From contig JADCRB010000077.1 in NCBI GenBank assembly GCA_021464245.1, forward strand, positions 744,001-808,000: 64,000 bases of DNA, in the 5' to 3' direction. This document shows positions 6,411 through 46,570 of the stretch, one piece after another. Positions within the stretch are counted from its first letter, which is position 1; each line of letters begins with the position of its first letter. This stretch comes from Carallia brachiata (taxonomy: Eukaryota > Streptophyta > Magnoliopsida > Malpighiales > Rhizophoraceae). The translations under genes were made by a program, and so were the position numbers. A model generated the notes under the pieces. It was not told where the DNA came from, ran no database searches, and saw nothing but the letters and a program-made list of their open reading frames with translations.

Positions 6411-6539
6411 TTGCCCAAAAACTTTAGCTGGAGATTGGTTTCGGCCTTTTTTCTTGTTTTTTTTCTTTTGTTTTTTCTTGTTTTTTTTTCTATTATTATA
6501 ACCATGTGTTTTCCAAGAAATAATTTGCACAATTCATCT

Positions 6540-9040
6540 GAACTTATCAGTTATTTTTACTAATCACTCAACAACTCAAATTTTGTTTTAGTTTTATCAC
6601 TCTGTTATTTAATGAAAAGTTATAAGTTTCATCCCCATTTGTGTAATTAATTACATTAAATTTCTTTAATTTATTTTTTTAAACACAAAAAAGGTGTATT
6701 GCATGTAATTTGTTATTGCACCTGTGTGGGTCACGTTGCTATTCCCATTTAATCATTCTTATAGAAGATTTACTATAGAATACTATTAGCTTTAAAAAAA
6801 TTCTTTAAATCTGGCTACAGTATTAATGAATTTAGAATTCACAACACATATCTCACAGTATTTTTGAAGACAAAAAGTATCGTTGCAGGGACTCAACTCA
6901 GGCTATAACAAGAGAAAACGCATTGGATTGCCACCAACTTATCACCTCACATGATTATTTAATCAAAAACTTCAACTTTATGAAAACTTGATGGCCCTCA
7001 GAGATGGAATGTTTTCTAGAGAACAATTTGTCAAAATTCAGGCATTGAGCTACCCCTGCCCCATACATTTCAAGTCCATTTTTTAACGACTAAGGCAATT
7101 TCACAGAGTCATCATATGTAAAGTTTTCCGAAGGACCAATAATTTTATAGCTTTCTTTATTATTTGTTTACCCAAATCAATTAGCCAGCTAACTTAGATA
7201 GCATGAAGCATTGTGATATATATATATATATATTAATGATAGCTTGTTGAAAGTGCGTGTAGCAGAAAAACTTACTTTGGACAAATTCGAATCATGGAAA
7301 CAATCTCTTTACTATAACAAAGGAAAGTAAAGAACAAGATAACACAAAAGATTGTTTAAAAACATAAATTGCGTTTAGCAAGTGATACTGACAGTAGTGA
7401 AGAGATTGTTCTGAGTTTCGGCAGGTTAAAAAAGAAATCAGTATCACTTGGTAAACCCTAATATGTTTTTCAAAAGAAAAAAAAATAAAAAAAAACATGA
7501 ATTGCGTTTAGCAAGTAATACTGATTGTAGTAAAGAGATTGTTTTTAAAATATTTCTGATTTGCTAAACGTGAATTCGAATCACCAAAAAAATAATTTTT
7601 GATTTTGATTGTTTTTTCTTTTCAAAAACATAAATCGCGTTTAGCAAGTGATACTGATTCTTGTTTTAGCTTGCCCAAAATCAAAACTGTTTGAAAGCTC
7701 CAGGCAAGATAAAAGGCAAACAAGCGGAATCAGCAAGGCAGATAGGCCAGTGAGGCAAACAACTACAGAGATCTCTGGCATTCATTAAAGTTAAAGAAAA
7801 AAGTTTGGCGATTTTATTTAAATGGTTATAAAATAATTTTAAAATTATATAGATGGTTTAATGATTGAATTAAAAAAATAATTAAATATTATTAATAAAA
7901 TTTTGTGATTATTTTAAAATTATTTAAGTAAAATTAAATAATGTTACTTATAAATTAAAAGATAAAATTAGTAAAATAGAAAAAAAAGAAAAAAAAGAAA
8001 AAAAAGGGAGGTAACACCAAAGGGCACAATCCTATGAGTTTGGTACAAACAATCTTCTTTTTTATTCCCTGTCAAGATGCTGTTGGTTGTCAGATCCCAT
8101 ATATTACCATCTACATTTTCCATGTCGATATCGAAGCGGCAAGCAAGGCGGACAGGACGAGAATGTTGCGTCATGGCTAACTTTGCTTGTCCTGTTGATG
8201 TCGCCGTCAAATTGTGAGTCCACTTCGCTCAGAACGGCCAAGGAGGATGGAGATTCAATCATTATATTGCGCGGAAAAACATAAAAATTAAAACAAAATA
8301 GATAGTAGGACGGGGTAAGAGGGACAAGAGCAGACTTCAAATGGAATGTACATAAAGATCAGGGAAAGGTACAATGCTAAGAAGAATAAATATTGATGTG
8401 CGGATAATTTGTATGTTGAATTTTATATTAAATAAAATTAAAATTATTATTTTTTAAATTAAAATTAAATTTTTAAAATAATTATATTTTTACTTTTTAA
8501 AAATATCAATTACAATTTAAAAATAATAATTACGGTTTCTCCGTAATAAAATCTCAGCACAAAACTCTTAGAACACGTAACTGCACTCTACAAAGAAATA
8601 CCTCCTATGTTACACGTCTTTTTTGTTTTTTTTTCTTATATTGTGTTCAACTTACTTTCATACGTTATTGCTTAGATACAAATCGAGCAATTTTTTTTTT
8701 GTTAAAATTAACAAAAGGTCTTTGGAGATGGGCAGAAAATTTAATCAGAAAGCAGTTAAAGATTTTTTTTTTTAAAAATGAATTCTAAATACGTTTAATT
8801 TATTTACTATTATTTTAAAACTTAAATATACTTTGTACAAATATATTTAGCATCCTAAAACTTAATATATACTTAAATATATTTCAAATTTAACTTATAT
8901 ATATTTGGTATTATTTTAAAATTTAATTCTTCAATTTTTTTTTTCCTAATACTTTTTTGAATAGCCTCTAACCCAATCGTCTCCCCACCGAACTTTGTTT
9001 GTACAACCGGACTCTTCTTTATATTAAGAAAAGGAAAAGA
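6540..9040. other. intergenic spacer, repeats only
   Basis: No supported gene. The spacer holds an AT microsatellite near 7217-7234, a small cluster of direct and inverted repeats at 7361-7657, and a stretch at about 7990-8170 that resembles 41850-42010 (both include CATGAGTTT or CTATGAGTTT and a later ATATCGAAGC). Very AT-rich sequence follows at 8400-8960. Confidence 0.5.
7361..7657. repeat. direct and inverted repeats of a 20-30 bp motif
   Basis: The motif GCGTTTAGCAAGTGATACTG (with small changes) occurs directly at about 7371, 7504 and 7638, preceded each time by AACAT(A)AAT. An inverted copy (TCAGTATCACTTGGTAAAC) lies at about 7437-7455 and a weaker one near 7556-7570. The pattern suggests nested or tandem remains of a small inverted-repeat element. 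Confidence 0.7.
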
Positions 9041-12543: not shown

Positions 12544-12597
12544 GTACGAATTTTTTTAATATTCTTGATTATTTGTCTACCCAAATCAATTAGCCAG

Positions 12598-13890
12598 TAA
12601 AATCTTCGAAAACTTCTTCAATTCTTTTGATTTCCTTTTGATTTTGCTCAAGTCGTTTATTAAAATAACTTATAAAATCTTTAAGATCTTTAGGATATGC
12701 CATTTTAAATGCTTAGATTCTGATACCAACAATTTAGTTCCTACTCCAAACAATAACAAAGCTTGAAGAAAGAATGAAGCACCTGGAAAGTACGTAATTA
12801 TAAAAGAATCTACCAGTGAAGTTTCATTAGAGCCCACTATAACAACACCATTACAAGTAGAAGAATCTAATAAAGCAATTGGTCCCCAAGAAATTATTAA
12901 AGAAGCTAAACAGGATCAGAGGATGGAGATCTCTCCAAACTACAAGGAAGATTTATAGATGATTTTGACAGACCAACAAAAAGAAGAAAAACAACATGAG
13001 GAAATATGACAGAGTGCTACAAAATTACTTGAAAGACGTAGAATTTTTGAATTGAAGAACATAACATAGGAACTGGTTAGAGACAATTATCTGGCAAGGA
13101 TTAAACCAAGCAATCATGCTGCCAGGAGGAGATCCATAATTTATAAGAACATTATTCAAATTTGAACTTCTTCATTGCATATATCCTGGAGCTGATTGCA
13201 AAGAATTATTATTATTTTATCATATAATTTCTTATCAATAATTAATCTTTCTCTGGTAATTTTAATTTTGCCATTAATTCTTCTATTCGCTGTTTGTTAT
13301 TAGTTTTCATTATTTGTTCTATAACATTTGCAATTATTAATTGTGTTCCAATTCCTACTATTAGCATTTGTTCGTGAGTATATTCTGTACTAATTACATC
13401 ATCGTTTAACCTATTATATACTTCTATTATATTTCTATTTATTGTTCGGAGTTCCTTTCTAGATTCTTCAATATATTCTTTAATATTGGTACTATTCACT
13501 TCTAATAGATCTTCTAATAATTCTATTATGTTTATTTGAGCTTCACTAGGTCTGGCAATTTTTATATTTTTCATTGTTTCCAAAAAATTTCTTATATTCA
13601 TTAGAAATTGTTCAAATCTTAAAGTTTCCTCTCAAGTTTCAGGTATCCCAACTTCTATTTAATTATTATAATTAGCGCTTAATTGTGCTTTAATTTCTTG
13701 GATTATTTTATCTATACTTTCATTAGTAGTCAGATTCAATAAAGACAAATATTCTCCAAACTTTTCTATCAGGGTCATTCTAAAATTGTGGTAATTTTGC
13801 ATAACTCTATAAAAGGTGGCCAATTTTGCAATTATCGAAAGTCTTCTGTCTTCTTCTATGTGTTCCTTTTCTGTCTCGGTACTCCGTAAG
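12598..13890 (-). mobile_element. retroelement / endogenous-pararetrovirus-like fragment, copy 1
   Basis: On the minus strand the segment carries two short frames (about 13870-13661, and 13601-13242 with an AQINIIELLEDL stretch), then a tRNA-Met-type primer-binding site (TGGTATCAGAATC, 12728-12716). An ATG follows within about 20 bp and begins a short frame, MAYPKDLKDFISYF. Between the second frame and the PBS the plus strand reads a broken hydrophilic frame (PTITTPLQVEESNKA). PBS of this type occur in plant pararetroviruses and in many LTR retrotransposons; no polymerase is present here to decide. Stops interrupt the frames. The same arrangement recurs at 21199, 36819 and 42479. Confidence 0.5.
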
Positions 13891-21198: not shown

Positions 21199-22597
21199 TT
21201 TTTAGAAAAATTTAAAAGATCGGCGTAGATAGGCGGGTGGACATAATGGGTTAATAACGCTGTGACAAGTAGGAAAAGTTCGGCAGTTTTTTTTGACATC
21301 GAAAAGTTTGGCTGTTTGGCTGCCAAACTTTTCCTATTTATTGTTTTGTCCATTATTTTTATAAGTAATGCAAAATAATGGACATAGGCTGGTGGACATG
21401 GTGGCTCTAATGACGCGGCAAGTAACTAGGCAATATTTGGCCGTCAAATTCTTCCTATTTACTATTTTGTCTATTATTTTATAGCCTTTTACACTTTTGG
21501 TTACAAACTTTATAATTTGTTAAATCTATTAATTTTTTTAAGGTATACTATATATATATACATATTTTATAAAATCTTTCTAGATGTTTGTAAAACTTAA
21601 TTCACTGTATAAATACTTTTTTACACAAGGATTTGTTACCATGGTAAAATCTTCAAAAACTTCTTCAATTCTTTTGATTTTCCTTTTGATTTTGCCCAAG
21701 TTGTTTATTAAAATAACTTATAAAATCTTTAAGATCTTTAGGATATGCCATTTTAAATGTTTAGACTCTGATACCAACAATTTAGTTCCTACTCCAAACA
21801 ATAACAAAGCTTGAAGAAAGAATGAAGCAACAGGAGAGTAATGTAATTATAAAAGAATCTAACAGCGAAGTTTCATTAGAGCCCACTATAACAACACCAA
21901 TATAAGTAGAAGAATCTAATAAAACAATTGGTCCCCAAGAAATTATTAAAGAAACTAAAGAGGATCAGACGATGGAGATCTCTCCCAACTACAAGGAAGC
22001 TGTATAGACTGTTTTGACAGACCAACAAAAAGAAGAAAAGCAACACGAGAATATGACAGAGAGCTACAAAATTAATTAAAAGATGTAGAATTTTTTAATT
22101 GAAGAACATAACCTAGGAATTGGTTAGAGACAATTATTTGGAAAGGATTAAAAAAAGCAATCATGCTGCTAAGAGGAGATCCATAATTTATAAGAACATT
22201 ATTCAAATTTGAACTTCTTCATTATATATATCCTGAGCTGATTGCAAAGAACTGATTACTTATTTTATCATATAACTTCTTATCAACTATTAATCTTTCT
22301 CTGATAATTTTAATTTTGTTATTAATTCTTCTATTTGTTGTTTGTCATTAGTTTTCATTATTTTTTCTATAACATTTACAATTATTAATCGTGTTCCAGT
22401 TTCTACCATTAGCATTTGTTCAACAGTATATTCTGTACTAGTTGCGTCATCGTTTAACCTATTAGATATTTCTGTTATATTTTTATTTATTGTTCGGAGT
22501 TCCTTTCTAGATTCTTTAATAGATTCTGTAATATTGCTACTATCTTCTTCTAATAGATGTTCTAATAACTCTATTATGTTTATTTGAGCTTCACTAG
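21199..22597 (-). mobile_element. retroelement / pararetrovirus-like fragment, copy 2 (left part)
   Basis: Contains the leader-like repeat at 21199-21560, with two imperfect copies of a unit of about 100 bp (GGTGGACAT...GACAAGTAGG). It then holds the short minus frame, the tRNA-Met-type PBS (TGGTATCAGAGTC, 21776-21764), the broken plus-strand frame and the minus frame 22587-22290 (AQINIIELLEHLLEED). The LTR retrotransposon inserted at 22597, and the fragment resumes at 31419. Frames are interrupted. Confidence 0.5.
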
Positions 22598-22650
22598 TGT
22601 AAATGCCTAAAAAAAAAAAATCAATCACGGTTGGCAGCTGCCAACCCAAT

Positions 22651-22674
22651 GCCACCAACCAAATGGTTGGTGGC
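22651..22674. repeat. perfect 24-bp palindrome in LTR U3
   Basis: Ten-base arms (GCCACCAACC and its complement) around a 4-base loop AAAT. Present unchanged in the 3' LTR at 30726-30749. The LTR of the diverged second element has arms GCCACCAACT with the matching complementary change at 44388-44411, so base pairing is kept while the sequence changes. Confidence 0.85.
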
Positions 22675-22686
22675 ACATTTCCTTTA

Positions 22687-22708
22687 GAGGGCCTATAAAT
22701 AGGCCCTC
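22687..22708 (+). promoter_or_regulatory. TATA box inside an inverted repeat, LTR promoter
   Basis: GAGGGCCTATAAATAGGCCC: the TATAAAT core is flanked by complementary GGGCCTA and TAGGCCC arms. It recurs in the 3' LTR and, with one arm altered, in the second element's LTR (AGCCTATAAATAGGCCCT on the minus strand near 44325-44342). The start of transcription is expected about 25-30 bp downstream. Confidence 0.7.
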
Positions 22709-23360
22709 CACCCAGTTCTATCCATCATTCAGCAAATCTGTAAATAGAAAAATACAGAAAATTTGAGAGAAAAAGAAAATTTGAAAATCTCTGAAGAAAA
22801 TTTCTCCTTTTCCTACGTATTTTAACTCTGCAGTATACTCTCCTACTCCTTTTTTGTGAGATATTTAAGGGGTAAGCCCCAAAAAATTTCTGTTTCCATT
22901 TCTAAGTTATTTTTAGGTTTATATTCTTGATCACTCTAGATCTGAATTTATGAGAATATAGATCTAAAAATATCAAATTATTATAAATCCGGCTGGGATC
23001 AAGTCTCATACGGCCTCAACAAAATCCAGGCAGCTCATCCGAGAATAAGTCCCTTCGACCCTCGGTGAAATTAAGCCAGATCGGCTCAGATCAGATCTCT
23101 GCGGTTCTTAACCGTAGTCTAAACGTCCAAACCAGATCCAGTTTCAGTCTACTCAGTTCAAGATAAAACTGTGGAAATTATTTCTGTCAAGATTAAACTT
23201 GTGCAGCCCTTGACGGAGTCAAAAAAAAGGAACACTAATCGGAGATCTACGAAGATCGACCCCACGTAAATTTTCTTTTATTTTAAATTTTTATTTGTAA
23301 TTTATTTTTTGTATTTTCGAGTTTAATTTTTAGACTGAAAATTCATCTGTTATAAATTTT

Positions 23361-23378
23361 TGGCACGCTCGGTGGACC
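23361..23378 (+). promoter_or_regulatory. primer-binding site
   Basis: TGGCACGCTCGGTGGACC lies six bases after the 5' LTR and starts with the TGG expected to pair with a tRNA CCA end. The tRNA species was not identified. Confidence 0.75.
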
Positions 23379-23559
23379 TTTTCACCTTCCATCTCTTATT
23401 CCTTAAAAAAAAAAAAGCAAAAAGAAGCAGCGGAGAAAAGAAAAAGAAAAAAAAGAAAAAAAAAAAAAAAAGAAAAGAACGAAAAAGAAAAAGAAAAAGA
23501 CAAAACAGAGAAGAAGACAAAAAAAGGTAAAATGTAAAAAAGTAAAAAAAAAATTTTAA

Positions 23560-24330
23560 CAGGTGTCCAGCACATCAAATAACACCAAAAAGGAGTACAA
23601 CCACTGCCACAAAAAAGAAGGCAACTGCTCCACTACCTGCATCAATTATCCTACTCGGGTACACAGGCCCACAAACTCGCGCAAGGACACGATTCCTTGC
23701 CACCAACACAATTCAGATGGAAGATCTCTAGCCTGTACAACAACAAGATCTCTCCCTCGACTCTCTTCCCGCATAGAAGAATCGATCACCCACCCCGATC
23801 GAAGTCGGGGGCAACATGATGAATCTTTCTCAACAACAGCAGAATCTGACTTATTCTGCATAAATGAACACATAGGAAGAAGAAGATCCCTCTACTCCAG
23901 TCTTCTATAGAGTATCAAATTCTGCTCAACAGTAGAATCCAACGCGTTCTGCTGAAACAAGTCAGGAAAGATCAGACGAGCCCTCTATAATAGTCTTACG
24001 TGGAGAACCATTTACCAATGCTGACATCAAGTTGACCGACACTACCAGAATAGAAAAAGTGTTTGCAGATTTAAACCGCAGATATTCACAGCTGATTAGC
24101 GGATATGCACATTTGATTGAAAATATGAAGGAATTAAGTTAGCAAATGAGTGACGTCAACAAAAGGCTTCGCCAAACCCAACCCGCTGACGCAGTCAACC
24201 GCGAAGATTGTCCTCAATCATCTCGAATTGGGGGTACGATTTTTAACCAATCAGATCAACAGAAGGACGAGAGTACCGACTCAGCCACAAGCTCACTTCC
24301 AAGTGGGATGAGTCATGTCTAGTTTGAAAA
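23560..24330 (+). pseudogene. gag-like N-terminal remnant
   Basis: From about 23975 the frame reads GEPFTNADIKLTDTTRIEKV and then a helical stretch (LNRRYSQLISGYAHLIENMK), followed by stop codons. A helical N-terminal segment at this place resembles the start of a gag protein, but no capsid core or CCHC knuckle follows. The upstream frame 23563-23910 is Ser/Thr/His-rich and unassigned. Gag appears truncated or replaced by low-complexity sequence (24400-24600 is poly-A rich). Confidence 0.45.
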
Positions 24331-24888
24331 AATGCTTCCATGTTATCAGGTCAGAAATGCATTTCGACCTGACCTAATAAAGTAGGTAAATTTCGAAACT
24401 ACTGTTATATTAAAAAAAAAGAAAAAAAATTCTCAAAAAAAGCAAAAAAAAAAATAAAAAAATAAAAAAAAGGCCAAAAAAATTAAAAAAAAGAAAAGAT
24501 TAGAAAAAGAAGTGAACAAAAAGCACAAAAAAAAGCACAAAAAAAAAAAAAAACGTCTGAAGCTCTTGTGCATTGTCAGAACCCTTCATTAAAATTCAAA
24601 TTTAGATTCGGGGGCAAATCTCAAATCTCGACTTAAAACTCAATAAAATTCAAAGCCAAACGTAAACTTGGCTAAACCCAGGCTCAAAGCCCGAATCCAA
24701 ATTCCAACTCAAAGTTCAAATCCAGATTCGAGGGTAAAACTTAAACCCTGAATCAAAGTCCAGTTTAACAGCTCAGTAGCTCAACAGCTCACCAAGCAGT
24801 TTACCAGCTCAACAGCTCACCAAGAAGCTCAACAGCTCACCAAACAGCTTGCCAACTCTCCGGCTCAATAGCTCACCAGTTCAACACT

Positions 24889-25066
24889 ACACTCCTGCCT
24901 CGCACGAGTATAAAAGGCTATAATCAATCCACCATAGTTCAGCACTCCTGCCTCGCACGAGTATAAAAGGCGACATCACAGTTCAACACTCCTGACTAAC
25001 ACGAGTATAAACGGCGAACAGCTCTACAACAAAGCACTCCTGCCTCGCACGAGTACAAAAGGCGAC
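24889..25066 (+). repeat. array of a 30-bp motif upstream of pol
   Basis: Four copies of CACTCCTGCCTCGCACGAGT followed by ATAAAAGGC, at about 24889, 24942, 24984 and 25035, spaced 42-53 bp. A single related copy (CATGAGTATAAACTGTG) lies at 28971, ahead of the homeobox frame. The second element carries about nine copies in the equivalent orientation at 46140-46570. Confidence 0.85.
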
Positions 25067-25439
25067 AATACAACAATGCAAACCCTAACAGGTGAGAAGC
25101 AACCACAACCTGCCGAACTTCGCTTATAGGAGGCTCCATCTGTAAGCACCATCACAGGCCTATGCTATGTTTCGAAGTCACGACGTCCAGAAGGTTAGTC
25201 CCCTTTTCCTTTTTTTTTTTATTGTATTAATCCTAAATAGGAGGAAGGACGCACCCAACCCGAGTCAGAAATGCTTTAAAGACAGGCTTGTCCAATCAAA
25301 CAGAAAAGACGAAGTCAGGATCTCTACATTACATGTCACTCAAGGAGGTCAATCTTGGCTCTCCGGAAGATCCCCGACATACATTTGTAAGTGCTTTACT
25401 TACTACAGAAGAAGAGCAAAAATATGTCCAGGTATTAAG

Positions 25440-28400
25440 TTAATACAGGGACGTGTTCGCATGGAGTTACAAAGAAATGCCTGGACTTGACACTAAAATT
25501 GCGGTGCATCGTCTAGCAGTAAAGAAAGGTGTTTGTTCTGTCAAGCAGCCACAACGACAGTTTCGCCCGGAACTCATTCCACAAATCGAGGAGGAGGTTA
25601 AGAAGCTGATTAATGCTGGCTTCATCCGAGAGGTCACCTACCCAACGTGGATTGCCAACATAGTCCCGGTAAGAAAGAAGAATGGACAGTTAAGGGTATG
25701 TGTTGATTTTCGAGATCTTAACAGGGCCTGTCTGAAAGATGACTTTTCGTTGCCAATAACGGAGATCACAGTCATGCAACAACGGGTCACAAAGCATTGT
25801 CCTTCATGGATGGTTCTTCAGGCTATAACCAAATCAGAATGACACCAGAAGATGAGAGTTGACAGCATTCCGCACCCCAAATGGTATATACTGTTACAAA
25901 GTTATGCGTTTGGATTAAAAAATGCTGGCGCCACTTATCAACGTACTATGCAAAAAATGTTTGATGACATGCTGCACAAGATTGTAGAATGTTATGTTGA
26001 TGACTTAGTTGTAAAGACTAAGAAGCGCAAAGACCATCGAGGATCTCAAGACGGTGTTTGAAAGACTTTGTAAGCATCAGCTTAAAATAAACCCTCTCAA
26101 GTGTGCATTCGGTGTCACATCAGGAAAGTTTCTTGGGTTCGTGGTGCGCCATCGTGGAATCGAAGTTGATCAGTCAAAGGTTGAGGCAATTCAAAAGATG
26201 CCCGAACGTAAAAACCTGTACGAGCTGCGAAGTTTACAAGGAAAGTTGTCCTACATTCGTCGTTTTACTTCCAACTTAGCTGGGAGATGTCAACCTTTCC
26301 ATCGGTTGATGAAGAAGGATGTCAACTTCGAGTGGGACGAAACTTGCAGTAAAGCCTTCGAGAGCATAAAGAAGTACCTTTCCAATCCACCAGTCCTGGG
26401 TGCTCTAATTTAAGGAAAGTCGTTGATTCTCTACATTGCAGCGCAGGAAAGATATTTGGGAGCCCTGCTTGCACAAGAAAATGAGCAGGGAAAGGAAGTT
26501 ACCCTGTACTACTTGAGCAGAACACTAAACGGTCCGGAGCTAAACTATTCGCCCTTTGAAAAGACATGTCTAGCACTGTTCTTTGCCATTGATAAACTGA
26601 GGCCATACATGCAAGCTCACAAGGTACGTCTCATTACCAAAGCTGATCCTGTCAAATATATCTTATCTAGACCAATCTTGTCAGGACGACTTGCCAAGTG
26701 GGCAGTAATCCTACAGAGCTGCGACATTGTCTACGTGCCACAAAGGACAAGCTATAGCAGACTTCCTTGCAGATCACCCTGTCCCGTCCGATTGGAGAGG
26801 TCTTTTACATTGAGACACTGCCACCATGGACGATGTTCTTTGATGGTGGAGTAAGGCGTGATGGTGCTGGTGCCGGCATAGTTTTTGTCACTCCTCAACG
26901 ACAAATACTATCATATGCTATCATTCTCGGTGAGTTATGTTCAAATAATGTTACTGAATACCAGGCTTTAATCATTGATTTTCAAATGGCTGTCGATATG
27001 AAGATTCCAACTATAGAAGTTCATGGAGATTCCCAGCTCATCATCAACCAACTTATAGGGTTATATGACGTGAAGAAAGAGGACCTTGCACCTTACCATC
27101 AATGTGCTCGACAGCTAATGGATGAATTTGAAAGTATCACCTTGGAGCATGTTCCTTGATGAGAAAACACTCAGGAAGACGCGTTGGCTAACTTGGCCAC
27201 CTATCTTGCAAAGTCAGAAATTCAGGCTACAGTTGTTGCCGTATGCCAGAAATGGATAATGCCTCGGAAGGATGATGAAGAAACTACAGCAGCGAACGCT
27301 GTATCTGTATGTCTCGCAGAGGACGAGGATTGGCGCCAACCAATCATTGATTATCTACAGCACGGGAAGCTGCCCGAAGATCGTCGTCATAAGACATAAA
27401 TTCAACGATGAGCTCCCCGCTTCATATATCTCAAGGATGCTCTGTATCGAAGATCTTTTGATAAAGTTTTACTTCGCTGCTTAGGCAATGAAGAGGCAAA
27501 ACAAGCTCTCATTGAAGCACATTCTGGTGTTTGTGGCAGACATCAATCAGGGCCTAAGTTGCACTTTCAGCTCAGAAGGATGGGATACTACTGGCCAACC
27601 ATGGTATGTGATTCCATTGAGTTTGCTAAAACTGATCAAGCTTGTCAATTTCATGCCAATTACATACATTAACCACCGGAGCCACTGCATCCAACTGTCT
27701 CGTCCTGGCCCTTTGAAGCTTGGGGTCTTGATTTAGTGGGGTCCTTGCCAAAGTCATCCTTGGGTCGCCTTTACATCCTCGCAGCAATAGACTACTTCTC
27801 AAAATGGGCCGAAATTATTCCATTTAGAGAGGTAAAGAAGGAGCATGTTGCCAATTTCATCCGGGCTCAATTGATCTATCGCTATGAAGTCCCTCTATTC
27901 ATCATCACTGATAATGGCAAGTAGTTCTACGACAGCTTGATTGACAAGCTCTGCGAGAAGTTCAAGTTCAAGCAGTACAAGTCATCCATGTACAATGCCC
28001 AGGAAAAAGGCTTGCCCGAAGTATTCAACAAGACCTTATGCAACCTATTGCGGAAGGTAGTCTCTAAATCCAAAAGAGATTGGCATGACAGAATTTTGGA
28101 GGCATTATGGGCGTATCGTACAACTTACCGGACTCCAACACAGGCGACGCCATACTCACTTGTCTACGGTGTCGAAGCAATACTGCCTTTGGAAACACAA
28201 ATTCCATCTCTCCGTATGACTGTTCTGGAAGGACTCACACAGGAGGAGAATGCTCGCTTACGTCTGGATGAGTTAGAAGCCCTCGATGAAAGGAGGCTCG
28301 AAGCATAACAGCAACTTGAGTGCTATTAAGCCCGGCTCACCAACACGTTCAACCGTAGGGTCCGCCCTCGATCTTTTCAAGTTGGAAACCTTGTTCTTGC

Positions 28401-28575
28401 AGTACGACGGCTCATCAACATGAAGTATCGGCCTGGTGACAAGCTTACTTCCCAATGGGACGGGCCATACTTAGTTTAGGAGGCCTATACTCACAACGCT
28501 TACATGCTGTCAGACCAAGAAGGCGTCCAAATTGACCCGATCAATGTTAAATTTCTGAAACAGTATTATGTGTAA
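25440..28575 (+). pseudogene. gypsy pol: reverse transcriptase, RNase H, second RNase H, integrase
   Basis: The reverse transcriptase starts near 25440 (DVFAWSYKEMPGLD) and continues through PVRKKNGQLRVCVDFRDLN to the catalytic YVDD at 25993-26004. A thumb/connection region (FLGFVVRHRGIEV) follows. The first RNase H covers about 26420-26760 (LYYLSRTLNGPELNYSPFEK). A second, archaeal-type RNase H covers 26830-27159 (FFDGGVRRDGAGAGIVF, then VTEYQALI and EVHGDSQLIINQL). Integrase has HSGVCG near 27520, then a catalytic core (YFSKWAEIIPFREVK, FIITDNG) and a C-terminal stretch ending INVKFLKQYYV at 28575. At least eight frame changes or stops interrupt it. No protease is seen before the reverse transcriptase. 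Confidence 0.9.
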
Positions 28576-29095
28576 ATATGTTTTTAAAAAAAATGAAAAA
28601 ATAAAAGAAAAAATCAAAAAATCAAAAAATCAAAAAAAAAAAAATAAAAAAAAAGTTCGGAAGTCCCGATCTGAAAGTCCAAGCGAAAATCCAAACCCGA
28701 AAATCTAAACCCAAACACTTGAGCCCAATTTAAATAACTCAAAGCCCAACTCAAAAGCCTGAAAACTAAGTCCAGACTCAAAACCCAAACACTCGATCCA
28801 AATCCAAAAGTCCAAATCCAAAACCCAAACACTCGACCTAAATTAAAAAATCCAAGTCTAGAAGCTCAAACACTCAACCCAAATCCAATCCAAAGCCCAA
28901 AACCCAAAAATTCCAAATTCCAGACACAGTTCAGAACCCAAGTTCAAAATCCAATCTAACTTCTAACCTGCATGAGTATAAACTGTGAACAACCCAAAAA
29001 TATAAAAGCGACGGAGGGTTTGAGTCTGAAACCTAGTATCAGTCTCAACCGATCTTCACCATATACCAGAACTTCACTCCTCTGTCACAAGAAAG
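28576..29095 (+). other. low-complexity linker between integrase and homeobox frame
   Basis: An A-rich run (28580-28655) followed by irregular repeats of AACCCAAACACT/CCAAATCCAAA-type sequence up to about 28960. This resembles the spacer at 24590-24780 upstream of pol. One copy of the 30-bp motif lies at 28965-28985. Non-coding as far as I can see. Confidence 0.6.
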
Positions 29096-29721
29096 ATGGA
29101 ACCAGTTGCAGAACCTCAAGACAAGAGAGAAGAAAGGTCACTTCGCACAAGGTGGCAACCAACCATGGCACAACTGCAAATTTTGGAGGAAGTTTTCCAC
29201 AACAATTGAGGTTTTATTCCTAATACATCTCAGATTTACCAACTTGTCTTACGACCGCGCCCGCTCGGGGCAATCGAAGGAAAAAATGTGTTTTATTGGT
29301 TCCAGAATCGGAGAAGCAGGAACAAACCAGCATTGAGAGCTGCTTTTTCCATAGAACAGTCTGCCGTTCCGATAGTAGATCCCACCGGTACAACTTCGCC
29401 CTCAAATGAAGCAGGTCCGAGTTCTAGCACTGCAATGGTCTCTTCAGGCTATAACGATCAAAGCCGTAGCCTGTGGGAGCATGCGTACTGGTCCTGGTGG
29501 TCTTACGGAGTCAGTCAATGGTTCATTCCTCCTAAGTACTTAAGTTCAGGAGGGACTTTTTTAGCAGAAGGAAGTCATTCCGGCAAAACTTTGCCTCTCT
29601 TCCCAGAATATTCAGCAGCATCAACCAGCCGGAAGGTTCCAGCGACGTCAACATCATCGGCCCACCAGACGAGGTCGAACTTGACTTGGAGCTACGCCTC
29701 AGGCCCTGCCAGGACGGTTGA
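29096..29721 (+). pseudogene. WUSCHEL/WOX-like homeobox gene carried by the retrotransposon, copy 1
   Basis: A 209-codon frame starts at ATG 29096 and ends at TGA 29719-29721. Residues about 17-81 form a WOX-type homeodomain: RTRWQPTMAQLQILEE in helix 1, LVLRPRPLGAIEGKNV before helix 3, and VFYWFQNRRSR with the invariant W-F-x-N of homeodomains. Residues 165-170 read TLPLFP, the WUS-box consensus. The end reads VELDLELRLRPCQDG, an LxLxL (EAR-type) repression motif. This order (homeodomain, WUS-box, EAR-like end) is that of WUSCHEL-clade transcription factors, which bind DNA and recruit TOPLESS-type co-repressors. Two lesions: an in-frame TGA at residue 38, inside the homeodomain, and a one-base loss near 29612 that shifts the EAR-like end. 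The second element's frame has the same length. Confidence 0.85.
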
Positions 29722-30628
29722 TAAGATAAGGTGCAACTACTTCTGCAGCACACAGCAACGACTTTTGCAGCGCACGGTAACGACTTTCGTGACACGTGTC
29801 AGCCGCCGCCTCTTTCATCTCTTATGCGGGAAAGAGACGTTGATGACCCTATTCGATTCTGCGTACCTTCTTTTTGACTTTTCAAAAAAAAAAAAAACTC
29901 TTTATTGTTTGTATAATATATCCTGCATGCCCGAGTTGTAATACTCACCTCTCCGCTCTTCTTTTTCTCAAAAAGAAAATGGCTAATCTCTGCACTTGTC
30001 TCAGAAAGTTCTTTGATAAAGAAGTTGGAGGCGCACGAGTTAAGAAAAGAAGAAGTAGTCCTCCTCGAGGGATCCCTAAAAGCTCTCGAAACTCAGTCTC
30101 CAAAGCCATCGGTGTCATGGAATTCCAACTACTCTCCTTAGTTCACATCTATCGTAGCAAGCCGAGAATTTCTAATCGTCCTCCTGGATCTACAAATGCA
30201 GTGACGTGCAAGGAAGTTCCAACTACTCTCCTTACGTCGAAGCAGATTCGGGAATCATCACCATAAACTGTCTCTTTGTGTGCAGGTCTTGAAGTTTCAT
30301 AGTGCTGGACCTTCCTCATAGGAAAGTCCAAGTTATTTGCCTACCGGATCATCCTCACCAGAGTTATGGAACTTTAAGACATATAAAAAATCCTTTGTGA
30401 GCTGTGGAAGTTCGACCGCACCTGGAGCCAGAATGTCAATTTTTATATTGGCTGGGGTGCTAACTTTCTCAAGATTGTATTGGATTCTTATTGCGATCTA
30501 ATAATAGCAGGCATAGTCAGAGTTAGAAGACTTCAACATTCAATGTTCATCAGGACATCTTAAGTTTAAAACTGGACTTCAAGACTCGGTGTGAATCACG
30601 TCTGCAAAGTTCTTCTTCACCGACCATT
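29722..30628 (+). other. 3' extra region of the element after the homeobox
   Basis: No clear gene. The frame around 30116-30260 (VMEFQLLSLVHIY, then EVPTTLLTSKQ) is also found in the second element (minus, about 45016-44850: MEFQPFSLVHIY, EVSTTLLMSKQ), so this part is a shared piece of the element. Function unknown; it may be an untranslated or structural region. Confidence 0.5.
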
Positions 30629-30642
30629 AAAGTGGGGGCATT
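30629..30642 (+). other. polypurine tract
   Basis: AAAGTGGGGGCAT lies immediately before the 3' LTR. The same AAGTGGGGGCAT precedes the LTR of the second element (minus strand, 44500-44488), supporting its role as plus-strand primer. Confidence 0.75.
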
Positions 30643-31418
30643 TATAAACTCCTAAAAAAAAATAATAATAATCACGGTTGGCAGCCGTCAACCTTGAAAT
30701 CAAGGCTGGCTGCTACCAACCCAATGCCACCAACCAAATGGTTGGTGGCACAGTTCATTTGGAGGGCCTATAAATAGGCCCTCCCACCCCAGTTCTATCC
30801 ATCATTCAGCAAATCTGTAAACAGAAAAATATAGAAAATTTGAGAGAAAAAGAAAATTTCTCCTTTTCCTACGTATTTTAACTATGCAGTATACTCTTAT
30901 AACTCCTTTTTTTAGAGATATTTCGAGGGTAAACTCCAAAAAAATTTGTTGTTTCCATTTCTAAGGTTATTTTTAGGTTTATATTCTCTGATCGCTTTAA
31001 ATCTGAATTTATAAGAATATACATCTAAAAATATCAAATTATTACAAATTCGGCTGGGATCAAGTCTCATACGGCCCTCAGCGAAATCTAGGCAGCTCAT
31101 CCGAACAAGTCCCTTCGACCCTCGGTAAAATTAAGCTAGATCGGCTCAGATCAAATCTCTGCGGTTCTTAACCATAGTCTGAACATCCAAACCAGATCCA
31201 GTTTCAGTTTACTTAGGTCAAGATAAAGCTGTGGAAATTATTTCTGTCAAAATTAAGCTCGTGCAGCGCTTGACGAAGTAAAAAAAAAAGAAACACTAAT
31301 CGAAAGATCTACGGAGATCGACCCCACGTAAATTTTATTTTATTTTAAATTTTTATTTATAATTTATTTTTTTTATTTTCGAATTTAATTATTTTAGAGT
31401 CGAAATTTACCCGTTACA
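30643..31418 (+). repeat. 3' LTR of the Tat-like element
   Basis: Aligns with 22598-23354. It starts TATAAACTCC (TGTAAATGCC in the 5' LTR) and ends CCGTTACA before the target duplication ACTAG. It has an extra stem region near 30680-30715 that is missing from the 5' LTR. Confidence 0.9.
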
Positions 31419-31720
31419 ACTAGGTCTGACAGGTTTTATATTTTTCATTCTTTCCAAAAAAATCTCTTATATTCATTAGAAATTCTTGAAATCTTAAATT
31501 TCTTCTCAAGTTTCAGGTATCCCAACTTCTGTTTAATTATTCAATAAAGACATATATTCTCCATACTTTTCTATTATGTTCATTCCAAAATTGTGGTAAT
31601 TTTGCATAAATCTATAAAAGGTGGTCAATATTGCAATTATCCAAAGTTTTCTGTCTTCTTCTATGTGTTCCTTTTCTGTCTCGGTAGTCCATAAGAAAAA
31701 AAAAAATTGGTATTTTGAGA
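31419..31720 (-). mobile_element. retroelement / pararetrovirus-like fragment, copy 2 (right part)
   Basis: Continues the fragment interrupted at 22597 and aligns with 13555-13890. It contains broken remains of the upstream minus-strand frame. It leads directly into the promoter region of methyltransferase copy C, exactly as copy 1 leads into copy B. Confidence 0.7.
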
Positions 31721-37260: not shown

Positions 37261-37804
37261 GTATACTCTGCAGTATACTCTCCTAACTCCTTTTTAAGAG
37301 ATATTTCAGGAGTAAACCTCAAAAATTTTGTTATTTCAATTTCTAAGGTTATTTTTAGATTTATATTCTCTGATCGCTCTATATATAAATTTATGATAAT
37401 ATAGATCTAAAAATATATCAAATTACTACAAATCCGGCTGAGATGAAGTCTCATACAACCCTCAGTAAAGTCCAGACAGCCCATCCGAGAACAAGTCCTT
37501 TCGACTCTCGGTGAAATTAAGCTAGATCGACTCAGATCAGGTCTCTGCGGTTCTTAACCGTAGTCTAAACGTCCAAATCAGATACAGTTTCAGTCTACCC
37601 AGTTCAAGATAAAACTGTGAAAATTATTTCTGTGAAGATCAAACTCGTGCTGCCCTTGACGAAGTAAAAAAAAAAGAATAATAATCGGAGGATCTACGGA
37701 GATCGACCCCACGTAAATTTTCTTTTATTTTTAAATTTTTATTTGTAATTTATTTTTTGTATTTTTAGGTCTAACTATTACAGATTCGAAATTTACGCGT
37801 TACA
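37261..37804 (+). repeat. truncated LTR of the Tat-like family
   Basis: Aligns with about 22835-23354 of the 5' LTR (from CAGTATACTC to the terminal TTACA). The first 235 bp, including palindromes and TATA box, are missing. It ends GCGTTACA like the complete 3' LTR. No internal element sequence is attached on either side. Confidence 0.85.
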
Positions 37805-43558: not shown

Positions 43559-44487
43559 TGTGAAATGGGACCCGTACGTTTCGATACTGCAACAGTTAGA
43601 CTGCGAAAAATACAGAGATAAATTACAAGTGAAAATTTAAAATAAAATATGTGTTTGATCTCTAGTAGATCATCTGATTAATGCTCCTGTGTGGTTTAGT
43701 CAAGGGCTGCACGAACTTGATCTTGACCGAAAGATGTTGAATTTCCACAGCGTGATCTTGAACCGTAGGAAATAGATTCCATTGAGAGTTGAGACTTGAT
43801 CTTAGGTGGTGCTAGAACTCCGATGACGGCCGTAGAGGGGTTGATCTCGTTCGGAATGGTCTGGTTCCGGTGAAGGCCATATGGGCTTGGTCTTAGGTGG
43901 ACTGATTTGACTCCACTGAGGGCCGAAACTTAATCCCACTTAGACTGTTTAGCTTCGCTAAGGGCTATAGAGCTTCACTAAGGACTGTAGAGGTTTTATC
44001 TCAGATGAACTGGCTTCGCTGAGGACTGTAGGAAGATTAATCTCAGACAGATGTTTAATATTTTAAATTTATACTTTCACGGATTCAGATCTAAGTTACC
44101 AGAGAATATAAACCCAAAATATGCTTGGAAATAGATACAACAAATTTTTTGGACTTTGTACCTGATATGTCTCCCTTAAAAGAATTAAGAGAGTATATCA
44201 CAGAGTACAAAAATGTAAGAAAAAGAGAAATTTTCTTAGAGATTTTCAAAATTTTTCTTTTCCTCTCAAGTTCTCTCTATTTTTTTGCTTATGAATTTAC
44301 TGAATCTTGGATTGAACTGGGGGAAGGGCCTATTTATAGGCTTTCATTTTCGTGTGAAAATGTTGTGTGAAAGGAGGAAATTATAAAGCCACCAACTATT
44401 CAGTTGGTGGCTTTTGAATAGCCGACCACAGTAATTAACTTTTTTTTTTCGTTTGAATTCTTCTTCTTCTTTTTTTTTTCTTTTATA
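43559..44487 (-). repeat. LTR of the second Tat-like element
   Basis: About 930 bp reading from TATAAAAG to TTTCACA on the minus strand. It shares with the first element the palindrome (44388-44411), the TATA in an inverted repeat, and a leader rich in repeated motifs of the CCTCAGCGAAGCCAG / GCCCTTAGCGAAGCT type. Diverged enough to be a separate subfamily. Confidence 0.8.
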
Positions 44488-45397
44488 AATGCCCCCACTT
44501 CAAGATTTGGTGAGTAAGAACCACCATTGAAACGTGATCTGAATCGAGTTTTGAAGTTCAACTTGAAACTTGAAATGTCTTGATGAATGTTGAATGTTGA
44601 AGTCTTCTAACTCCGACTTATCCAATTGTTGTTGGACCTCAATAGAAAATCGATACGATCTTGAGGAAGTTAGCAGTCCAGCCAATATAAAAATTGAAGT
44701 CTTGGCTCCAGGTGACATTGAGCTTCCATAGCTCGCAAAAGTTATTTTATATATCTTGAAGTTCCACAGCTCTGATAAGGATAATCTGGTAGGTAAGGAA
44801 CTTGAACCTCCCCATGAGGAAGGTCGAGTACCGTGGAACAACAAGGCCTGTGCATAAGGAGACGGGCTGTAGTGATGATTCCTGAGTTTGCTTCGACATA
44901 AGGAGAGTAGTTGAAACTTCCCTGTATGTCGTCGCATCTGAAGGAAGATAAGGATGATTGCAGTTTCTCATCCCTCTGTGGTAGATATGAACTAAAGAGA
45001 ATGGTTGAAACTCCATGACACCGATGACATTGGAGATTAAGTTTCGAGAGCTTTAGGAATTTCTCGAAGAAGACTACTCATTTTCTTCTTAGTTCGTACA
45101 CCTCTCACTTCCTGATCAAAGAACTTCCTGCAAGAGAAAGTGTAGGAGCAAGCTATTTTTTTTCTGGGAGAAAAAAGATCTAAAAGGGTGAGTTCTGTGA
45201 CTCAGGCATCCAGAAAATATATACACATCAAAAAGCCTATTTTTTAATGTTTTTTTTTTAAATTAGAAAGAGGATACAAGGAATCTAGTAGGGTCCTCTA
45301 TGTCCCTTTCTTCCATAAGTGACAGAAGAGGCAGCGGTTGATGCGAGTCGCAAAAGTCATTACCGCGTGGTGTGAAAGTCATTGCACCTTATCTCTA

Positions 45398-46024
45398 TCA
45401 GTTGTCCTGGCGGGACCCGAGATGCAGCTTCAAGTCAATCATAGTCTCGTCCGGTGGGCCGATGATGTTGATATCGCTGGAGTTTTCTGGCTAGTTGATA
45501 CTACCGGAATATTCTGAAAAAAGAGGTAAAATTTCACCGAAATGACTTCTTTTTGCTAGAAGAGTTCCTTCTAAACTTAAGTACCCATGAGAGATAAATC
45601 CTTAACTGACTCCGTAAGACTACCAGAACTAGTACGCATGCTCTCATAGGCCACGACTTTGATCAACATAGCTTGAAGAGATCATTGCAGTGGTAGAACT
45701 CAGGCCTGCTTCATTTGAGGGTGAAACTATATCAGTGAGATCTACTATGAGAATGGTAGGCTGTGCTTTGAAAATAGCATCTCTCAGCGCCGTTCTCTTC
45801 CTGTTTCTCTGATTCTGGAATAAAAAATATACATTTTTTCCTTCGACTGCCCCCAGCGGGCGCAGTCGTGAGGCAAGTTAGAGAATCTGTGATGAGTCAG
45901 GGACAATACCTCCATTGTTGTAAAAGAACTCTTCCAAAATTTGTAGTTGCACCATAGTTGGGTGCCATCTTTTGCGGAGTGACATTTATTTTTCCTTAAC
46001 CTGTTATTCTGCAGATGGTTCTAT
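45398..46024 (-). pseudogene. WUSCHEL/WOX-like homeobox gene carried by a retrotransposon, copy 2
   Basis: Homologous to 29096-29721 over exactly 209 codons with no frameshift. The start codon position is ATA (46024-46022); an internal ATG lies at 45985. The homeodomain reads RKRWHPTMVQLQILEE, then LRPLGAVEGKNVYFLFQNQR, with the invariant Trp of WFQN changed to Leu. The WUS-box position reads ILPLFSEY. The C-terminus ends IIGPPDE, a DLKLHL motif and QDN before TGA at 45400-45398, in frame with the homeodomain. About nine in-frame stops (for example in the N-terminus, at helix 2 and at 45646-45644) make it a pseudogene. Divergence from copy 1 includes many third-position changes. Confidence 0.8.
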
Positions 46025-46139
46025 TTCTCTGCTACAGAGGAGCAAAGGTCTGATATGCAGGAAAGACTAAAGCGAAACTAAAGCAGTGACACAGACTCAA
46101 ACTCACAATCTCTTTTATATTTTTGGGTCGTTCACAGTC

Positions 46140-46570
46140 TATATTCGTGCGGGCCAGGAGTCTTGGACTGAGTCCTGTGTTATTGTTGCTATCTCGCCTT
46201 TTATACTCGTGCGGCTTAGGAGTCTAGTTTGCTAGATTGTCGCCTTTTTTTGTCGTGCGCGCAGGAGTATTGAACTGTGTTGTCACCTTTTATACTCATG
46301 CGAGGCAGGAGTATTGGACTTGCTGGTGAGTCGTTCGCCTTTTATGCTCGTGCAAGACAGAAGTGTGCTGTTGAGTTGTCGCCTTTTATACTCATGCGAG
46401 GCAGGAGTGTTGAACTGTGTTGTCGCCTTTTATACTCGTGTGAAGTAGGAGTGTTGAACTGTGGTATCGCCTTTTGTACTCGTGCGAAGCAAGAGTGTTG
46501 AACTGTTCGCCTTTTACACTCGTGCGAGATATGAGTATTGAATTGTTTGCCTTTTATACTCGTGCAAAAC
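46140..46570 (-). repeat. array of the 30-bp motif, second element
   Basis: About nine degenerate copies of the CGCCTTTTATACTCGTGCGA / GGCAGGAGT motif (read on plus), spaced 37-50 bp and separated by TTGAACTGTGTTGT-like spacers. Same motif as at 24889-25066 in the first element, reversed as expected from its orientation. Confidence 0.85.

Follow-up and report, generated by a model that had tools for sequence, protein, structure and literature searches.

Accessory open reading frames (ORFs) have been described in several plant long terminal repeat (LTR) retrotransposons, and a homeobox gene of Carallia brachiata invites comparison with them. The gene lies in a Tat-type Ty3/gypsy element within a 64,000-nucleotide stretch of this plant's genome (contig JADCRB010000077.1, positions 744,001 to 808,000; hereafter the window) and is of the WUSCHEL (WUS)/WOX type. 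We consider it probable that the element family captured a WUSCHEL-type host gene and carries it as a regular accessory gene, with a protein that acts in cells feeding the germ line. The papers compared below are cited from the parts of their text that were available.

Elements of the Retand lineage, surveyed over 617 genomes, encode antisense TRP28 ORFs between pol and the 3' LTR, together with a few other antisense domains (PMC11963269). They resemble the element studied here in their tandem repeats, in the probable DNA-binding product of the ORF and in that some members are non-autonomous. Some Retand clusters also have antisense matches to Smc, mitotic checkpoint, DNA polymerase III subunits, topoisomerase 2 and Mis12. 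The TRP28 ORF is antisense, whereas the ORF described here is sense and encodes a recognisable host-type homeodomain protein. The stretch from pol to the 3' LTR measures about 2.1 kb in L015, a Carallia genome copy used as reference below, versus 2,933-6,566 bp in Retand elements (PMC11963269). The words homeo, WUS and transcription factor are absent from the main text of that survey.

Maize Grande gene23 (reviewed in PMC7264820) is likewise an accessory gene of the 3' internal region, with a nuclear product and its own promoter. It runs antisense and resembles no other protein clearly, whereas the Carallia gene is sense and WUS-type. Antisense family-wide ORFs in general lack clear similarity to other proteins in the available text of that review, bar an SMC and a transposase 28 domain.

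Gene transduction, as in maize Bs1 and the captures of rice and sorghum, also places host sequence inside an element, usually in sense as here (PMC7264820, PMC13317346). Gene capture as such is common, since LTR elements of rice and sorghum hold more than 1000 captured genes each, many of which are expressed in sorghum (PMC13317346). Transduced ORFs occur in one or few element copies (PMC7264820), whereas the WOX gene occurs at hundreds of places. The available text of PMC13317346 mentions no homeobox or WUS, and that of PMC6317226 no extra ORFs, homeo or transcription factor. Gypsy elements come up in WOX papers as neighbours of WOX genes (PMC5501002, PMC6482515, as far as available). No report of a WOX gene inside a retrotransposon was listed by searches of a literature library mostly without subscription papers and preprints.

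We searched the host genome (337.5 Mb, 164 contigs) for the gene. Among the best 150 of 1347 candidates scored in a homeodomain search, many have near-identical scores and frames of about 229 aa. With Arabidopsis WUS as query, the best 134 of 1360 scored comprise 9 host WUS-clade genes and 125 element-type rows; element type was assigned by score and coverage, and only fetched rows were read. Of these, 123 have no internal stop, and the open frame reaches 200 aa or more in 92, one of which carries a stop inside the match; they lie on 62 contigs. A 45-base homeobox pattern, with up to two mismatches, matches at 566 genome places (268 forward, 298 reverse; counted as pattern matches), and its reversed control at 0 and 0.

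An integrase query from L015 was used so that the homeobox did not drive the choice of copies. The best 40 of 999 matches all carry WOX (40/40), in a sample that is non-random, being the closest relatives of one WOX-bearing copy with L015 itself among them. A listed stop-free homeodomain lies near 29 of the 40 integrases, in 25 cases in a frame of at least 200 aa. The remaining 11, absent from the homeodomain list, were candidates for copies without WOX; we fetched and read them, and all 11 carry it. Three are type I (L043, L046, L050) and eight type II; L045 and L048 are intact, L047 is open to the end of the fetched stretch and the other eight are frameshifted. With a 3'-region query from L015, a homeodomain is listed at 36 of the 40 best matches, a lower bound for the 40, and 35 of the 36 have it in a frame of 200 aa or more. 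The WUS/WOX-type gene resides in the element family as such and is no one-off insertion. Family members without the frame, which the sequence-only reading had named as the finding that would undo a family-wide gene, did not appear among the 40 integrase matches. Presence at 566 places and in every one of these matches also departs from low-copy transduction, which is confined to one or few copies.

Because ordinary WOX genes exist in the host, one might suppose that these loci are a host WOX gene family beside which elements merely landed. The arrangement makes this extremely improbable. The homeodomain keeps a narrow spacing, 543-945 bases from the integrase (29 rows) and 461-548 bases from the 3' region (36 rows); in the remaining 11 integrase rows WOX adjoins the integrase, and the position is fixed in 40/40 copies. 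In addition, the element homeodomains form one clade (100/93; 67 hand-aligned sites) apart from the host WOX genes that were read.

As judged by sequence similarity, WUSCHEL proteins are the best relatives of the element gene. Of the residues of the L015 homeodomain, 33 of 67 recur in host WUS and 33 of 66 in a host gene taken to be WOX3. In a hand alignment this homeodomain equals WUS in length, and the other host WOX homeodomains read (presumably of the WOX1-5 and WOX13 types) are one residue shorter. Element protein and WUS-clade factors also share a WUS-box, TLPLFP, and a C-terminal LxLxL motif. The WUS-box has the form T-L-x-L-F-P and follows the homeodomain; we see it in the WUS proteins examined here. 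The element protein differs from WUS in about half of its homeodomain residues, in its compact size (203-207 aa), in being intronless as read and in its place within a mobile element. Since the frame has no intron between the homeodomain and the EAR tail, its structure fits capture through RNA.

Against 5.8 billion proteins, a WUS ortholog matches the window frame best (72 bits), and identity stays at or below 54% in all 120 matches listed out of 422. Among 7937 scored matches of the element's pol, 4424 reach 1e-100 or better. Because the WOX gene has no close relative listed while pol has thousands of strong matches, the element WOX gene looks special to the host lineage, or is unannotated or masked elsewhere. 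The sequence-only reading had proposed capture of a host WUS/WOX gene and a tree with the host's WOX proteins. Residence in the family and the kinship with WUSCHEL speak for the capture, and the tree groups the element homeodomains firmly. The neighbours of that clade are weakly supported, and about half of the homeodomain residues are common with host WUS.

Two side observations concern relatives of the homeodomain. P0022, P0025, P0026 and P0054 are short, divergent WUSCHEL-like proteins (P0022, P0025 and P0054 from Ipomoea) with QLQIL and FQNQR changes somewhat like those of the element; P0022 and P0054 further resemble the element protein in compactness, WUS-box and EAR-like tail, and match L015 at 31 and 33 of 67 homeodomain positions. 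At L038 (C36:1180600-1180880) the homeodomain is of element type and its RLRQFGVIEGKN stretch is closer to WUS, so that this locus is possibly an older branch.

The window itself holds two members of the family, copy 1 and the diverged copy 2, with the following features (window positions; RT, reverse transcriptase; PBS, primer binding site; PPT, polypurine tract).

22593..22597, no strand: target site duplication ACTAG, 5' copy (single copy at the empty site near 13545-13549)
22598..31418, + strand: Tat-type Ty3/gypsy LTR retrotransposon, copy 1 (LTR alignment, empty site; TG start, CA end)
22598..23354, + strand: 5' LTR (LTR alignment)
23361..23378, + strand: putative PBS-like sequence TGGCACGC, with TGG at its start, after the 5' LTR (by sequence)
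24936..25067, + strand: 44-bp tandem repeats, consensus unit containing TATAAAAG (repeat analysis)
25444..28560, + strand: broken pol (piecewise Pfam scan)
25843-26058, + strand: RT part of copy 1 pol, RVT_1 match, weak at 26015-26410 (25444-25839 is RT-like by eye only)
26758-27156, + strand: additional RNase H of copy 1 pol (RVT_3 3e-15)
27673-27921, + strand: integrase core of copy 1 pol (5e-6, under the Pfam cut-off)
29001..29008, + strand: TATAAAAG box, 95 bases ahead of the WOX ATG
29096..29718, + strand: WUS-type gene of copy 1, broken
29144..29326, + strand: homeodomain of copy 1 (Pfam PF00046 4e-10; WUSCHEL 6ry3 4e-16)
29207..29209, + strand: in-frame TGA within the homeodomain, codon 38
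29588..29605, + strand: WUS-box TLPLFP (same motif in WUS proteins)
29680..29700, + strand: EAR-like LDLELRL, in frame after the frameshift, then stop
30630..30639, + strand: PPT-like AAGTGGGGGC, just ahead of the 3' LTR (by sequence; copy 2 has the same)
30643..31418, + strand: 3' LTR (86.8% identity to the 5' LTR over the aligned part)
31419..31423, no strand: target site duplication ACTAG, 3' copy (flank comparison)
37265..37804, + strand: truncated LTR of the WOX-bearing element family
43563..46161, - strand: copy 2, 3' part of a second, diverged member with 3' LTR, WOX and PPT (bounds approximate)
45401..46024, - strand: WOX of copy 2, broken, without its start and with 8 stops in the compared codons

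The sequence-only reading had called a WOX-type homeodomain in a 209-codon frame (29096-29721) lying inside the element, between integrase and PPT. The homeodomain was matched in a profile search: with X at the stop, residues 17-77 of the frame match Pfam Homeodomain, and Protein WUSCHEL (6ry3) is the better of the two solved relatives listed, ahead of STENOFOLIA. Its position within the element, between integrase and 3' LTR, was confirmed by the LTRs, the TG..CA ends, the ACTAG duplication and the empty site. The continuous frame was not: besides the TGA, one base is missing near 29612 relative to copy 2, and the C-terminus matches in the other frame. Given this in-frame stop and frameshift, the copy 1 WOX is a pseudogene. 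Its WUS-box and EAR-like tail had escaped the sequence-only reading. No 5' LTR was seen in copy 2.

The element flanks (21644-22597 and 31419-31541) match 12597-13549 and 13545-13667 in a paralogous block, where ACTAG occurs once (about 13545-13549) rather than on both sides of an element. Such an empty site is available because O-methyltransferase blocks are tandemly duplicated. Their array spans 9025-43559 of the window, with about 78-92% identity between blocks. When its two exons are joined, the O-methyltransferase of the window has 80% identity with a protein of Rhizophora mucronata and 49-66% with the remaining 119 matches listed among 1106, a pattern that suggests a host in Malpighiales close to Rhizophoraceae. 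The 44-bp tandem repeats with a TATAAAAG-like stretch occur at 24936-25067 and 46237-46565 and resemble the region just upstream of WOX; they precede RT in copy 1 and WOX in copy 2. Rfam and tRNA scans across the window gave no match.

The state of the gene was read in 20 fetched genome copies (L009-L028), a biased set picked from the homeodomain list, partly for long frames. Intact frames, which the sequence-only reading had suggested seeking, run from ATG to the native stop (about 203-207 codons) in 14 of the 20, all from the same host genome. L011 and L025 lack only the in-frame start ATG, and L023, L024, L026 and L027 are shifted or stopped. Open frames (n=17) have 207 (11 copies), 203 (four), 204 (one) or 205 codons (one). 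The stretch directly after the WOX stop varies in length, and the TATAAAAG box lies 94-96 bases upstream of the WOX start in 20/20 copies. Open frames of genome copies encode both the WUS-box and the EAR-like tail; the box reads TLPLFP in 13 of 18 aligned frames, ILPLFP in L010, L022 and L045, ILPLFQ in L028 and TLSLFP in L011. The family was recently active and has spread, because the LTR pairs found in six fetched copies (some partly cut) are 92.9-98.4% identical and 11 of the 40 integrase rows, query included, have the maximal score.

By domain order the element family is Tat-type, as had been proposed. L015 encodes RVT_1, RT_RNaseH, RVT_3/RNase_H, H2C2 and rve, in that order, in one 1006-aa frame, and thus has an additional RNase H between the native RNase H and the integrase; RVT_3 is also present in copy 1. 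All elements having this arrangement cluster with Tat (PMC10508981, in the available text). Calling the element a complete retrotransposon went too far: in the window and in L012, L013, L015 and L022, the frames scanned upstream of RT gave no gag domain. A protease-like match at L022:1714-3156 is under the Pfam cut-off, and no protease matched in the scanned frames of the window or of L012, L013 and L015. The gag and protease of an autonomous LTR retrotransposon were thus not found in the frames scanned, apart from that weak match in L022, and the amplified type may be non-autonomous, riding on other elements. A Pfam scan of seven open stretches in a single copy, L015, five of them antisense, gave no match, which spoke against an antisense accessory domain in that copy. 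Long lysine-rich low-complexity open stretches (A-/AG-rich DNA) occur in its leader (L015:978-2500) and directly after pol (6514-6700).

Compared with L015 in 400-base bins, pol is 94.5-100% identical, usually 97-99%, in eleven genome copies (L009-L012, L017, L019, L022, L024, L026-L028). WOX and the following stretch are mostly 89-95% identical in the more distant of these. Because pol is more alike than the WOX/3' region in the more distant copies, the comparison suggests that subfamilies with a recent pol in common have recombined.

The pattern of codon change bears on whether the element needs the protein. A gene captured once could simply hitchhike, its frames intact from youth and descent from a few masters and its protein useless to the element. 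Many copies are nearly identical, as such a passenger would predict, and the whole-frame tests within type I are weak: seven pairs have omega 0.37-0.74 versus nulls of 0.57-0.70, with 66 to 1274 of 2000 null values at or below (rows L023, L025, L026 and L027 left out). The comparison of L045 (type II, found via integrase) with L015 (type I) points the other way. Their WOX DNA is only about 86% identical, yet both frames are open. Omega between them is 0.27 in the homeodomain (null 0.78, 2/1000) and 0.41 over the whole frame (null 0.72, 13/1000); after the homeodomain it is 0.63 (null 0.65, 444/1000). Between L045 and seven other type I copies (L024, L026 and L027 left out for short frames), homeodomain omega is 0.27 (2/1000) in three and 0.40-0.44 (44-98/1000) in four, and whole-frame omega 0.40-0.52 (16-143/1000). 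The frames compared were chosen for being open, so their lack of stops carries no weight. Pol omega was not used as a codon yardstick, since a frame-based count breaks on frameshifted copies; nucleotide identity was used instead.

Variants shared among copies agree with this contrast. Among homeodomain variants, those shared by at least two copies divide into 7 synonymous and 2 non-synonymous, and those private to one copy into 11.5 and 23.5 (Fisher p 0.027 after rounding), with L045's own differences counted as private, type I copies chosen by homeodomain score and L023 left out. After the homeodomain, shared variants (11 synonymous, 34 non-synonymous) give no constraint signal, which again suits a passenger. 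The best-supported pairs (omega 0.27, null 0.78) nevertheless show, from codon change, a homeodomain under purifying selection between two amplified subfamilies, and we regard a useless passenger as rather unlikely.

The window copies add to this picture. Whole-frame omega between copies 1 and 2 is 0.44 (null median 0.60; 123/2000 at or below), and homeodomain omega is 0.30, for which no null was computed. Their alignment has one indel in 624 frame columns, versus 3 in the 149 columns upstream of the frame and 8 in the 925 columns downstream; changes at third positions are not in significant excess (50; null mean 46.4; 519/2000). Two pairs of copy 1 with genome copies have omega 0.37 and 0.39 (33 and 34/2000).

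A homeodomain protein could alternatively serve the integration complex, bringing DNA or integrase to chosen chromatin, or helping in nuclear import or nucleic-acid binding. That the homeodomain alone is measurably constrained would suit such a helper, as would the accessory proteins of related elements, which are nuclear or predicted DNA-binders (PMC7264820, PMC11963269, in their available parts). The kept WUS-box and EAR-like motif would instead point to transcriptional co-repressor binding, and we judge a role in the integration complex improbable.

In the reading that we prefer, a Tat-type LTR family would have taken up an intronless copy of a host gene of the WUSCHEL type, and this copy would now be a regular accessory gene between integrase and PPT. 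The gene could be transcribed from its own TATA promoter just upstream (the TATAAAAG box) or via the LTR transcript, and its product would be a nuclear DNA-binding repressor or recruiter of the WUS kind. The protein might then alter transcription or the state of the cell in meristems or embryos, whose cells feed the germ line, with the result that the element is expressed or transposed in those cells. A bolder form is that the element hijacked a stem-cell master regulator: a WUS-type protein made in shoot or embryo would push cells or their chromatin into a stem-cell-like state or one that supplies the germ line, or would relieve or redirect silencing, and would so make heritable insertion more likely. 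We put this forward tentatively, as a possibility short of an even chance.

Several observations weigh against the preferred reading. First, the residues after WFQN are RRSRKKP in the element and HKARERQ in WUS. Second, type I pairs are mostly non-significant (one of seven falls under 5% of its null), and the L011-L028 pair exceeds its null (0.74 versus 0.66, 1274/2000). Third, outside the homeodomain, omega between L045 and type I copies is no different from the null (0.52-0.78 versus 0.62-0.68), and the pairs share sequences and are hence non-independent. Fourth, WUS-type binding motifs are not enriched in the LTRs, which spoke against self-regulation through WUS sites in the LTR; 30 motif-by-region tests gave one nominal excess, a single TCACGTGA in the leader (3/200). 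Finally, the missing gag domain and the selective choice of both the fetched copies and the integrase matches count on the same side.

If the bolder form is true, a plant retrotransposon has, fixed throughout a high-copy family, an accessory gene that can be recognised as a host transcription factor. The extra gene here is of a known class whose mechanism is understood, and what such extra ORFs of plant LTR elements do becomes directly testable: whether its protein binds DNA, recruits co-repressors, can replace WUS and changes where the element is active. The family also shows how a genome can be flooded with a developmental regulator in hundreds of copies, and the product of a master regulator of plant development may be coming from a mobile element.
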